This document shows, in pieces, positions 14,397 through 63,176 of a stretch of 64,000 bases of DNA. How positions within the stretch are numbered: position 1 is the first letter of the stretch; each line of letters begins with the position of its first letter. A model generated the notes under the pieces. It had not been told where the DNA came from. It did not search any database and saw nothing but the letters and a program-made list of their open reading frames with translations. The DNA is taken from assembly GCA_016192995.1 (NCBI GenBank), contig JACPTB010000005.1, positions 62,001 to 126,000 on the forward strand. The letters run 5' to 3'. Origin of the DNA: Candidatus Woesearchaeota archaeon. GTDB taxonomy: Archaea; Nanobdellota; Nanobdellia; Woesearchaeales; DSVV01. A program made the translations under genes and the position numbers.

Positions 14397-14455
14397 GATA
14401 ACTTTGCAAAATACTGGCAGTAACCCGAGCTTTGCGAGTATTTTGCAAAGTTCTC
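14397..14455. mobile_element. Family 2 palindromic element, short copy
   Basis: 59 bp with 16-bp perfect terminal inverted repeats AACTTTGCAAAATACT/AGTATTTTGCAAAGTT inside GATAAC...GTTCTC ends. The flanks are the 4-bp direct repeat TTTA (14393-14396 and 14456-14459), a target-site duplication. The interior GGCAGTAACCCGAGCTTTGC matches the longer copies at 25578 and 54800. Confidence 0.8.
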
Positions 14456-53454: not shown

Positions 53455-54621
53455 CTATTTCCTCAACTCCAAATATTTGCTTGCCCATAACATACCATCA
53501 TCGCAATAATAAAACCAGGTATGATATGGTGTTCCATCTTGGTTAAACACTTCTAAAAAATTATTATAACGCTGTATTGTTTCGGTATATTTATCTAAAT
53601 AACGTTGTAACAATTCTTTATCATATCTTTTAACAACATCTAAATAACATAATCCAAGATGCATCCAATTAGTTGAGCCTTCATAATTTTGCGCAAAAAT
53701 ATTGAGTAGTTTTAACTGCTGCCGATCGAATTCTTGCCGCGCATATTGGAGTGGAAATGGATTATCAAGCCCGACACGTTGTATCTCATTTAGACATTTT
53801 TTGAACATCTTTTTATCATCAACAACCTTGCACCAGAATGGAAATGTATTTGCGTCTCCAGAAATATGATTGCCAACCAATTCTTCACGAAAGTATTTTC
53901 CTGTCCAAAAATTATCTATAATAATTTTCTTAAAATCAAAATGTTTGAATGAACAGGCAAGCTTCAACTTGTTTGCTTCTTGTTGGATCATGTAGCTCAT
54001 GCAATTATTATAACATGAAGAAACAGTATGGGCATTATCTTTCATTGATGAAAAATGCTTCTTAGAATCGATTAATCCTTGATCAGTTAAAACATATGTA
54101 TAGTAAAACGTAAGTTGTTGTTCCAGAAAAGGTTTATAGACTTCTGCTAAATATTTATTTCCAGAAACACGAAGAGCATACAATAAAAATGCTAAACTGT
54201 CGGGAGCATAGGCAAAAACATCTAGTGGCTTGTGGTTTTGAGTAATTGTCGTTGTTATTTTATTATGCATTGCATAAACATGGAGGCAATATTGCAGTGT
54301 TTTTTCAATTTCTTTTTTATAACCTAATTTCAACAGCGCTTCAACACAAATCCCAAAATCACGAATATAAAAAACAGCAAAATTTCCCTTGCTTACTTGA
54401 AAATACTCCCCATTAAAACAGTTTTTGACAATAGTATTGGCTATCTGCTGAGGAGTTCCTTTATATTGCGGTAATCCTTGTTTTGCAATTTGGAGTCTTC
54501 GTTTTAAAAACCGCAATCCTTCCAGTAAATGGCCTAACTCGTACATTTTGTATAATAAGTAAATTGTGTTTATATAATTAACTGGCAGTTCGGCTTCATC
54601 CAAAAAACAGCGATGGGACAT
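53455..54621 (-). CDS. Predicted (alpha/alpha)6-barrel glycosidase-like protein
   Basis: 388 aa, helical throughout. Repeated helix pairs such as GNFAVFYIRDFGICVEALLK and LGYKKEIEKTLQYCL, then DSLAFLLYALRVSGNKYLAE, GDANTFPFWCKVVDD and EGSTNWMHLGLCYLDVVK resemble six-hairpin glycosidases (GH15/GH63/GH100-type), with Asp in YIRDFG and GDAN as possible catalytic acid residues. No known family is certain. Its first codons are part of a 71-bp duplicated block (54600-54670 and 54704-54774). Confidence 0.55.
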   Translation of the reverse strand: MSHRCFLDEAELPVNYINTIYLLYKMYELGHLLEGLRFLKRRLQIAKQGLPQYKGTPQQIANTIVKNCFNGEYFQVSKGNFAVFYIRDFGICVEALLKLGYKKEIEKTLQYCLHVYAMHNKITTTITQNHKPLDVFAYAPDSLAFLLYALRVSGNKYLAEVYKPFLEQQLTFYYTYVLTDQGLIDSKKHFSSMKDNAHTVSSCYNNCMSYMIQQEANKLKLACSFKHFDFKKIIIDNFWTGKYFREELVGNHISGDANTFPFWCKVVDDKKMFKKCLNEIQRVGLDNPFPLQYARQEFDRQQLKLLNIFAQNYEGSTNWMHLGLCYLDVVKRYDKELLQRYLDKYTETIQRYNNFLEVFNQDGTPYHTWFYYCDDGMLWASKYLELRK

Positions 54622-54774
54622 AAAGTCCCATTTTTAAAAATATAAAAATACGGACCTGGCGAGATTCGAAGTCCCGCAACCTTTTACGTTCGTAAAAGCT
54701 TGACCAAAAAACAGCGATGGGACATAAAGTCCCATTTTTAAAAATATGAAAATACGGACCTGGCGAGATTCGAA
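54600..54774. repeat. Tandem duplication joining tRNA 3' end and gene start
   Basis: Two near-identical 71-base copies (54600-54670, 54704-54774) spaced 104 bases. Each contains the start region of the glycosidase-like gene (palindrome ATGGGAC-ATAAA-GTCCCAT) and the last 19 bases of the tRNA-Arg gene. Only the right copy is joined to the tRNA; the left one has a mutated T-arm sequence (TTCGAAGTCCCGCAAC). Confidence 0.85.
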
Positions 54775-55008
54775 CTCGCGATCTACAGCTAGCTCCTTAG
54801 AGAACTTTGCAAAATTATGGTTACTGCCTATTTTGTGAGCATTTTCGAAAGACTTATCGAGCAATTTTCGAGGTTCCAGAGAGAAAATTGCTTTGTTAAA
54901 CAGAGATCTCAATGCGAACTGGCAGTAACCCGAGCTTTGCGAGTATTTTGCAAAGTTCTCCTTAAGTAATAGGAGGCTGTCGCCTTATCCAGACTGGGCC
55001 ACAGGTCC
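54755..55008 (-). tRNA. tRNA-Arg(CCT) with a 179-nt intron carrying a MITE
   Basis: Exon 1 is 55008-54970, exon 2 is 54790-54755; the intron lies after A37. Acceptor GGACCTG/CAGGTCC, anticodon stem ACAGC/GCTGT, loop CTCCTAA with anticodon CCT, T arm GCGAG-TTCGAAT-CTCGC, discriminator G. The bulge-helix-bulge has central helix CTCC/GGAG with bulges TAT and CTA. The ancestral intron was 14 nt; a family 2 MITE of 161 bp plus 4-bp duplication CTTA accounts for the rest. Confidence 0.93.
54800..54960. mobile_element. Family 2 MITE within a tRNA intron
   Basis: 161 bp with GAGAACTTTGCAAAAT and ATTTTGCAAAGTTCTC ends, flanked by the 4-bp duplication CTTA (54796-54799, 54961-54964). It leaves the splice helix and bulges intact. 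Confidence 0.92.
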
Positions 55009-60696: not shown

Positions 60697-61620
60697 TTAT
60701 TTGTTAAAGATCTTTGCAAATATTTTATCTAGCTCTTTATTCGCGTCTCCCTTAAATTCTTTATGAGGTATTCCTAAATCTTCTAAAACTTTATTAAATC
60801 TCTTATATCCGTCCTTATCTCTCAATTCAACCCATCCCACTTTAAGACTATTCAATTGTTTTTTATTTGTATCAGATAATTTATCAGCAACAAAAACAGA
60901 ACTATCTCTTGCGATAACCGCATCTGCACTTTCTGGATTTCCTTTTCCCATTAATTTCACTTCACAAAGAAAATCTGTACCTTTATTGCTTAAATAAAAA
61001 TCAATCTCTCTTTCAAAATCTTCATCAGTTTGTATTTTGCTTTTTACTTTTATTTTGTAATTTTTTTCAGTTACACCATATAATTCACATAATGTTAACA
61101 TAAGTGGTTTTTCGACTCTTTTTCCGGCTGTACTCCAAAGCCCACCCCTAAGTGCCGCTCGTTTGACTGCTAAAGTATTTATAACTATTAAACTTTCAGC
61201 AACATTTAAGTCTACGCTTACTCCTTTAAATTTTAGAGTAAGGGTGATGTTTAATCCTTCTTCACCATCTACTAAGGATTGTATTGTTTGATAAAGTGTA
61301 TCGTAATGTTCATTTGAGGCTTCTATAACTATCTCTTTTGTTGCAGAATTGTACATATTAGAAATTGTTTTTTTGTTAAGACCCGAATTAATTGCTATAT
61401 CTTCAGCAGGAAGATTTTTATTAAGAAATTCTTTTTTATACCAATCAACAGTTATATCTTTGTTTTTCAATTTTGCATCAATAATTTTTTTAAAGAAGTC
61501 AACAGTATATTGTAAAAATTCTGCATTGATTAGTGTGACTATTTCAATTCTGTAATCTTCCCCATCCATTAGTTTCTTTATTATATTTTTGGCGACTTGT
61601 TCAGTTAATGTTATTGTCAT
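60697..61620 (-). CDS. Type II restriction endonuclease (possible CfrBI-like)
   Basis: 307 aa. The middle GGLWSTAGKRVEKPLMLTLC and REIDFYLSNKGTDFLCEVKL give a PD-(D/E)xK layout: Glu, Asp in the DFYL strand and E-V-K after 14 residues. The pattern looks like the CfrBI family of endonucleases, though the family name is a guess. The start ATG overlaps the methyltransferase stop by four bases. Cleaves the unmethylated recognition site, which is not known. Confidence 0.8.
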   Translation of the reverse strand: MTITLTEQVAKNIIKKLMDGEDYRIEIVTLINAEFLQYTVDFFKKIIDAKLKNKDITVDWYKKEFLNKNLPAEDIAINSGLNKKTISNMYNSATKEIVIEASNEHYDTLYQTIQSLVDGEEGLNITLTLKFKGVSVDLNVAESLIVINTLAVKRAALRGGLWSTAGKRVEKPLMLTLCELYGVTEKNYKIKVKSKIQTDEDFEREIDFYLSNKGTDFLCEVKLMGKGNPESADAVIARDSSVFVADKLSDTNKKQLNSLKVGWVELRDKDGYKRFNKVLEDLGIPHKEFKGDANKELDKIFAKIFNK

Positions 61621-62981
61621 TTTATTATCCTCTCAAATTCTTTTATATTTAAAAACTTAGGTCTAAATTTGCTATCCGTAAAAATTTTTGTTTGAGTAAG
61701 ATTCTCTTTTATCCTATCAACATATTTTTTTTCTTTTTCCGTCAAAAAGAAAAATCTATCAAGATTTAAAGCAGATTTGCCAAATGTTCCACTCCCTGCA
61801 AAAGGATCAAAGACTAAATCACCTTTAAAAGAATAGAATTTAATGACTTTGTTGCAGAGTTCTAATGGAAAAACTGCACTGTGAGTTTTATCAAATGTAG
61901 GGTCTATCTTCCAAACATTTGATGATTCAAAATCTCCGTTAATTTTACTTTCTTCAACTATTTTTTTATCGTATTGTTTAATATTCCAATCTATTAATTT
62001 ATCTGTCTTTTTTCTATAAACCATTACACACTCCGTGCATGCATTAGGTTTATATCCTAAGGGTTTTCGATGTTGTAAAAAACCAGCATTTCTATTTTTA
62101 GCACTTGCTTCTGGCTTTTCCCAAACAATATCATCAATAAATTCCCAACCTATTTTAATTAATAGAGGGTGTATATCATAAGGAATAGGATATCGTTTGC
62201 TAGAATATTGCCTGCCTACACGAGGGATAATAATAGGTGATGTGTTCAATAAAAAAAAACGACCTTCTTTTGTAATTCTATGAACTTCTTTAAACACTTC
62301 TTCTAAAAATTCTAAATATTCCTTATAACTAGAATAAATAGAATAATCTCTTGCATTATAATATGGGGGAGAAGTAAAAGTTAAATGAACTGACTCATTT
62401 TTTACTAATTTTAATATTTCCCTAACATCTCCACAAACTAGAGTATTTTTCATAAAATCAGGTGAAGCTGTATGATTTGGATCAAAACCATTTGAAGAAT
62501 TACTGAAAAACTCTTTTTTTATAACCTCTTGAATCATTTCATTAGGATGACTATTTAATTTTTTAAGTTTTTCTTGAATATCTTTATCTTCTTTGAAAAC
62601 CAGCAATCCTCGCATAGCTTGCATGACTACTTCAGGGTCTGAGTCATTTAAATATTTAAACAATACTTGTTTATTAGATATATTTCTTAATCTTCCAATG
62701 CCCGAAACAGCTTCACGTCTAACACTCGAACTATTATCTTGTTCAACAACATTAACGAATACGGTGGCGAGATTATCATCTCCTATTTTTGCTAAGTTTT
62801 TTATTGCTAAACTTCTAACTTTATCATTATCATGTTTGAGAAGATTCATTAAAGGTGTAATATCAAAGTTTTCGTCTAGCCTACCTAATCTATCAAGTGA
62901 TTTTACTAATGCACCTACATTATTCTGTTTAATAACATCTTGTATCATTTCAGGCTCTTTTTTTAATAATTCTGCTTCCAT
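61617..62981 (-). CDS. HEAT-repeat/DNA methyltransferase fusion (beta class)
   Basis: 454 aa from ATG 62981 (GGGGT site three bases before); ATG 63011 would add ten residues. Residues 1-155 have HEAT-like repeats: VKSLDRLGRLDENFDITPLM, SLAIKNLAKIGDDNLATVFV, REAVSGIGRLRNISNKQVLF. The methyltransferase follows with motif IV LTFTSPPYYNARDYS before motif I LVFDPFAGSGTFGKSAL, the order of the beta class (N4-cytosine or N6-adenine). The endonuclease is coupled downstream. Confidence 0.88.
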   Translation of the reverse strand: MEAELLKKEPEMIQDVIKQNNVGALVKSLDRLGRLDENFDITPLMNLLKHDNDKVRSLAIKNLAKIGDDNLATVFVNVVEQDNSSSVRREAVSGIGRLRNISNKQVLFKYLNDSDPEVVMQAMRGLLVFKEDKDIQEKLKKLNSHPNEMIQEVIKKEFFSNSSNGFDPNHTASPDFMKNTLVCGDVREILKLVKNESVHLTFTSPPYYNARDYSIYSSYKEYLEFLEEVFKEVHRITKEGRFFLLNTSPIIIPRVGRQYSSKRYPIPYDIHPLLIKIGWEFIDDIVWEKPEASAKNRNAGFLQHRKPLGYKPNACTECVMVYRKKTDKLIDWNIKQYDKKIVEESKINGDFESSNVWKIDPTFDKTHSAVFPLELCNKVIKFYSFKGDLVFDPFAGSGTFGKSALNLDRFFFLTEKEKKYVDRIKENLTQTKIFTDSKFRPKFLNIKEFERIIK

Positions 62982-63176
62982 ATTACCCCTTATGATAGTG
63001 TAATATCTCATGTTTATAATGTTTTCTTTTTAAATGCTATTCTAAATTGTCCAATGGTAGTCGTTCGTTATGGAATTCCCCCCTCGTTCGTTTTTTAGTT
63101 CGTTATCGTTAAAATTGCCACGAGCAGATGGGCGAGAGCGCAGCGTGGTCGAGGATTTTGAAGAAATCCGAAGAAG

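Follow-up and report, generated by a model that had tools for sequence, protein, structure and literature searches.

A young MITE insertion in the canonical intron of an archaeal tRNA-Arg(CCU) gene and its predicted compatibility with splicing

Can a transposable element settle in the intron of an archaeal tRNA gene and leave the tRNA able to mature? The origin and change of archaeal tRNA introns have so far been argued mostly from old, eroded introns. Here we describe a locus of a Candidatus Woesearchaeota archaeon at which such an event appears to be young and all of its marks are present: terminal inverted repeats (TIRs), a target-site duplication (TSD), near-identical sister copies and an empty site that can be reconstructed. 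The locus lies in a stretch of 64,000 nucleotides (contig JACPTB010000005.1, positions 62,001 to 126,000, referred to below as the window and numbered from its first nucleotide), and the genome is a 16-contig draft of 1.6 Mb that is 99.6% complete.

The tRNA-Arg(CCU) gene occupies window positions 54755-55008 on the minus strand. Its 5' exon of 39 nt (54970-55008, tRNA positions 1-37) has intact 5' strands of the acceptor, D and anticodon stems and carries the anticodon CCT at 54973-54971, and in its 3' exon of 36 nt (54755-54790, positions 38-73) the 3' strand of the anticodon helix, the T arm and the acceptor strand are all intact. The exons are separated, at the canonical position 37/38, by an intron of 179 nt (54791-54969), which contains a 161-bp element (54800-54960). 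The element is bounded by perfect 16-bp TIRs, GAGAACTTTGCAAAAT on the plus strand (54800-54815) and ATTTTGCAAAGTTCTC on the minus strand (54945-54960), and is flanked by two direct copies of CTTA (54961-54964 and 54796-54799, plus strand; TAAG in the sense of the tRNA). When the element and one CTTA were removed, a 14-nt intron, TTACTTAAGGAGCT, was left and ARAGORN identified the joined flanks as tRNA-Arg(cct). Neither plain ARAGORN nor Rfam detected the filled gene. The name first given by ARAGORN in intron mode, tRNA-Trp(CCA), was rejected, because a separate tRNA-Trp(CCA) gene is present (L053) and the flanks join to Arg(cct).

About 30 near-full copies of the 161-bp element, 92-98% identical, were found in the genome (31 long matches if those of 92-100% identity are counted), along with longer (214-220 bp) and truncated variants. 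Alignment of 29 full-length copies revealed exact 4-bp direct repeats around 19 of them, and in several of the remaining ten the flanking repeat was mismatched at one of the four bases. The pattern TANN/NNTA accounted for 16 of the 19 exact duplications. There is no room for a transposase gene in 161 bp, and the copies add only short frames. With a size below about 600 bp, perfect TIRs, many copies, TSDs and no transposase of its own, the element has the properties by which MITEs are recognized. The mean pairwise difference among the 29 copies was 10.5 of 161 positions; the copy in the intron differs from the family consensus by two substitutions, which indicates that it is young. Substitutions in the element are concentrated in predicted loops, not in stems: variation shared by two or more copies was seen in 8 of 110 paired versus 17 of 51 unpaired columns (Fisher p=8e-5).

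Two other explanations of the interrupted gene were considered. In a 16-contig draft, a multi-copy repeat of 161 bp, which is longer than many short reads, could in principle join two unrelated flanks, but this is very improbable here, because the flanks are the halves of one tRNA whose 7-bp acceptor and 5-bp anticodon stems pair across the insert, they share the 4-bp duplication, and once joined they make up a complete tRNA in which a 14-nt intron is left. Archaeal tRNA introns can be long and structured, and the 179 nt could be an ordinary intron of the bulge-helix-bulge (BHB) type with a chance inverted repeat. This can be dismissed with still greater assurance, since the same 161-bp unit stands with TSDs at about 30 unrelated sites, and the other 28 full-length sites tested interrupt no tRNA. 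As judged from the sequence, we are therefore dealing with a real, cleanly marked young MITE insertion into a canonical tRNA intron, for which the element, its TIRs, the TSD, the copies and the reconstructed empty site provide the demonstration. An earlier note on this DNA had proposed exactly this: its coordinates and arithmetic were exact, its derivation of a 14-nt intron agrees with the ARAGORN result on the joined flanks, and its view that transposition had turned a tiny intron into one of 179 nt was borne out.

An autonomous partner with the same TIRs was looked for. No DDE_Tnp_1 gene, the sole transposase family searched for, was found in the genome, and no flanking transposase was seen by eye at the unpaired TIR sites examined. 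Unpaired TIRs, considered as traces of such a partner, belonged instead to truncated copies or to mini-elements of 31 and 59 bp, or were chance matches. A single viral match, located inside a frame that encodes a long phage-like protein, was also taken as chance. The TIR was present in 7 of 11 same-family genomes searched (the source genome included), and full-length copies occurred only in the source genome among 99 searched. Mini-elements of about 20-59 bp, consisting of little beyond two TIRs (e.g. GAGAACTTTGCAAGTATTTTGCAAAGTTCTC), are intergenic in several genomes of the family (G000 C9:44719, C13:22794, C7:64788 and C4:37300; window 14397-14455; L133-L136 and L139). One hairpin inside the element, GCAATTTTCGAGGTTCCAGAGAGAAAATTGC (element positions ~59-92), recurs at about 90% in MITE-like repeats from other families of this order (L092, L093, L096, L100), and the terminal repeats of at least one of these are different.

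The history that we propose begins with the transposition of a non-autonomous MITE into the 14-nt intron that already existed at 37/38 in the single tRNA-Arg(CCU) gene found, whereby a CTTA target was used and the intron grew from 14 to 179 nt. In the precursor RNA the TIRs are predicted to pair and the element to fold into one long hairpin that stacks on the splicing site, while the anticodon sequence CUCCU would pair with the original intron sequence AGGAG and the 3-nt 3' bulge would be kept. The archaeal splicing endonuclease would most likely still cut at A37^U and CU^A38; ligation of the tRNA halves would then yield a normal tRNA. Taken as a whole, this account of insertion into an old intron, folding back and retained splicing seems to us the probable one, with appreciable doubt attached.

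An intron at position 37/38 fits the BHB introns of archaeal tRNAs. For the 14-nt form, a 5-bp central helix (CUCCU/AGGAG) with a 3-nt 3' bulge (CUA) was predicted, with the 5' splice site in an 8-nt terminal loop and without a second helix. The description of this intron as a perfect bulge-helix-bulge was thus too generous: it has one proper 3-nt bulge, the strict hBHBh' motif (a central helix between two 3-nt bulges) is not formed, and the modeled structure is at best a relaxed BHB. In the filled form the TIRs are predicted to supply the second helix, and the 5' splice site falls in a 9x1 internal loop. That both splice bulges survived the insertion, as had been claimed, holds in the predictions for the 3-nt 3' bulge and the helices and does not hold for the 5' site with its altered loop.

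The minimum-energy fold of the filled pre-tRNA (-87.5 kcal/mol) kept the acceptor, anticodon, T and central helices. At its left end the insertion gives rise to a decoy AGGAG, composed of TAAG from the TSD and GAG from the TIR; pairing with the decoy was 5.5 kcal/mol worse and occurred in none of 1000 sampled structures. For the anticodon stem and the central helix, pair probabilities averaged 0.75-0.76 in the filled versus 0.95-0.98 in the empty form, and every pair of these two helices was present in only 59% of 1000 sampled filled structures. As a control, the element was replaced by 200 dinucleotide shuffles of itself. The anticodon stem and the central helix survived in the minimum-energy fold for 5% of the shuffles (mean probability 0.03), whereas 26 of the 29 natural copies, when placed in the intron, gave the same helix probability as the resident copy (0.75), and the splicing helices were also kept when the resident element was inverted (0.75). 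The tolerance thus comes from the way in which the element folds back on itself. Such shuffles are by design without long-range self-complementarity, thus the control shows an effect of folding back and not selection for it. It is tempting to generalize that folding back pre-adapts MITEs to archaeal tRNA genes, in that their TIRs supply the intron-side helix of the BHB and the element can be spliced out near position 37/38 in either orientation, and that repeated insertion and decay have been a general route of intron growth and turnover in this lineage. We regard this generalization as unlikely.

Whether the filled gene still serves the cell depends on splicing, for which the genome encodes one endonuclease (PF01974, E=3e-31, contig C15, 182 aa). 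This protein aligns best with the Nanoarchaeum equitans subunit 3iey_A and with the Methanocaldococcus jannaschii enzyme 1a79, and it is without the short insertion present in the N. equitans subunit, therefore broad substrate tolerance cannot be assumed. A second intact tRNA-Arg(CCU) gene, which according to the earlier note would speak against a functional role of the interrupted one, was looked for and none was found in the genome; the best other match was tRNA-Arg(UCU) (L058, G000 C4, about 1814-1933). In the latter gene a non-canonical intron interrupts the 5' strand of the anticodon stem, and G028 (L067) has a similar intron. With tRNA-Arg(UCU) present, AGG could be read without tRNA-Arg(CCU), and survival of the cell is consequently no proof of splicing. 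It is conceivable, and to be taken seriously as a minority outcome, that the insertion, although real, has disabled the gene, which would then be a fresh, undecayed pseudogene while tRNA-Arg(UCU) with a modified U34 reads AGG. The presence of that tRNA, with its non-canonical intron, speaks for such a loss, and so do the youth of the copy (2 nt from the consensus), the altered 5' splice loop, the rarity of AGG (77 of 16829 codons in the ORFs of the window) and the observation that, of the CNN tRNAs, Arg-CCU is the one that archaea most often lack (40 of 167 genomes, PMC6000648). Against it stand the intactness of both exons, the location of the insertion site within the intron, and the persistence of the splicing helices in the minimum-energy fold, which random inserts rarely allow. 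On balance, the models make splicing of the filled pre-tRNA plausible, and mature tRNA-Arg(CCU) is likely still produced.

The intronic position itself contributes little to this question. Among the TA-containing 4-bp targets in the ancestral tRNA-Arg(CCU) gene, 8 of 12 spare both exons; for this reason the position is weak evidence for splicing, and it was rejected as proof of selection. Because the copy is young, selection cannot yet be read from the intactness of the exons either. The same figures bear on the suggestion that tRNA introns are a safe harbour for such elements. The element does sit in an intron, with almost all of its other copies intergenic, as would be expected if it were targeted to tRNA introns or used them as a protected niche, but the reconstructed empty site was an interrupted tRNA for just 1 of the 29 full copies, the one described here, no interrupted tRNA was found in 27 regions around other TIR sites, and an insertion with a preference for TA would have spared the exons at most sites of this gene anyway. 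Targeting or a protected niche is thus improbable, and the safe-harbour suggestion was not upheld.

The state of the intron in relatives was determined by searching for tRNA-Arg(CCU) in 10 genomes of the same family and 29 of the same order, none of them of the same genus. At position 37/38 there was no intron in G003 and G006, a 14-nt intron in G004 and G008, and introns of 23 nt in G002, 27 nt in G001 and 42 nt in G007; in G012, of the same order, the intron was 15 nt long. Presence of the intron differs even within one genus (pairs G001/G006 and G003/G007). The loci are likely orthologous, as a gene for a 388-aa protein adjoins tRNA-Arg(CCU) also in G001, G006 and G023 and lies slightly farther away in G003. 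The proposal that related genomes be checked for the 14-nt intron was thus answered in part: the length recurs in G004 and G008, the 14-nt introns of genus g5 equal the ancestral intron in length and not in sequence, and the others are absent or 15-42 nt long. The element was absent from all tRNA-Arg(CCU) genes of relatives that were read, and scans of genome collections for relatives did not find the empty site of the locus. In several Arg tRNA genes of related genomes (L068, L073, L078, L080, L084, L085, L087, L088, L090) the T loop, the D loop or the anticodon stem contains extra sequence, and some of these genes have two such sequences; these are probably introns. Intron turnover in this order is high.

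The introners of eukaryotes (cited in PMC11782384) are MITE-like elements that bring their own splice sites and give rise to new spliceosomal introns. The present element resembles them in changing the intron content of a gene without, if splicing is retained, destroying its product, and differs in that it made no intron and carries neither splice site, both of which belong to the 14-nt intron. The nearest precedent is the heterogeneous tRNA-Thr(GGU) locus of Caldiarchaeum, where the integration or recombination of a 1.8-kb element with a putative recombinase was proposed to create a 24/25 intron and to scatter tRNA fragments (Sugahara et al. 2012, PMC3293823). In both cases the structure of a tRNA intron has changed in connection with a mobile element in an archaeal population in nature; unlike the Caldiarchaeum element, the 161-bp element is recombinase-free, is flanked by a TSD and only lengthens an existing canonical intron. 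Near-identical introns have spread among the tRNAs of Thermoproteales by a mechanism described as unknown, according to the account of Fujishima et al. (2010) given in PMC4090602. As far as that account goes, archaeal tRNA introns are altered by movement of DNA there as well, but the introns themselves move, whereas here a MITE moves and its TSD is visible. The Sulfolobus islandicus MITEs SM3A (164 bp) and SMN1 (PMC3718332) are likewise short, multi-copy elements with TIRs, no ORF and direct repeats at their ends, presumably moved in trans; unlike them, the present element was found within a tRNA intron and the DDE_Tnp_1 search yielded no partner. The words 'tRNA' and 'intron' appear nowhere in the text of a 2024 review of prokaryotic MITEs (PMC10969869). 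No direct case of a transposable element within a tRNA intron was found in the literature searched, which included few subscription papers, and earlier cases may exist. Thus both parts are of known kinds, and the combination of a MITE with a tRNA intron appears to be new in the literature searched. The locus offers a direct test of the tolerance of the archaeal splicing endonuclease, and of whether tRNA splicing lets self-folding transposons through without harm.

Two further features of the window were recorded. A 77-bp tandem duplication (96% identity; 54600-54676 and 54704-54780) comprises the 3' end of tRNA-Arg(CCU) and the hairpin downstream of it, and a perfect palindrome, CTTTTACGTTCGTAAAAG, lies between its copies at 54681-54698; together they look like a relic of integration at the 3' end of the tRNA. 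At 60697-63011 there is a restriction-modification pair, composed of a CfrBI-like endonuclease (PF09516) and an N6/N4 DNA methylase fused to HEAT repeats.
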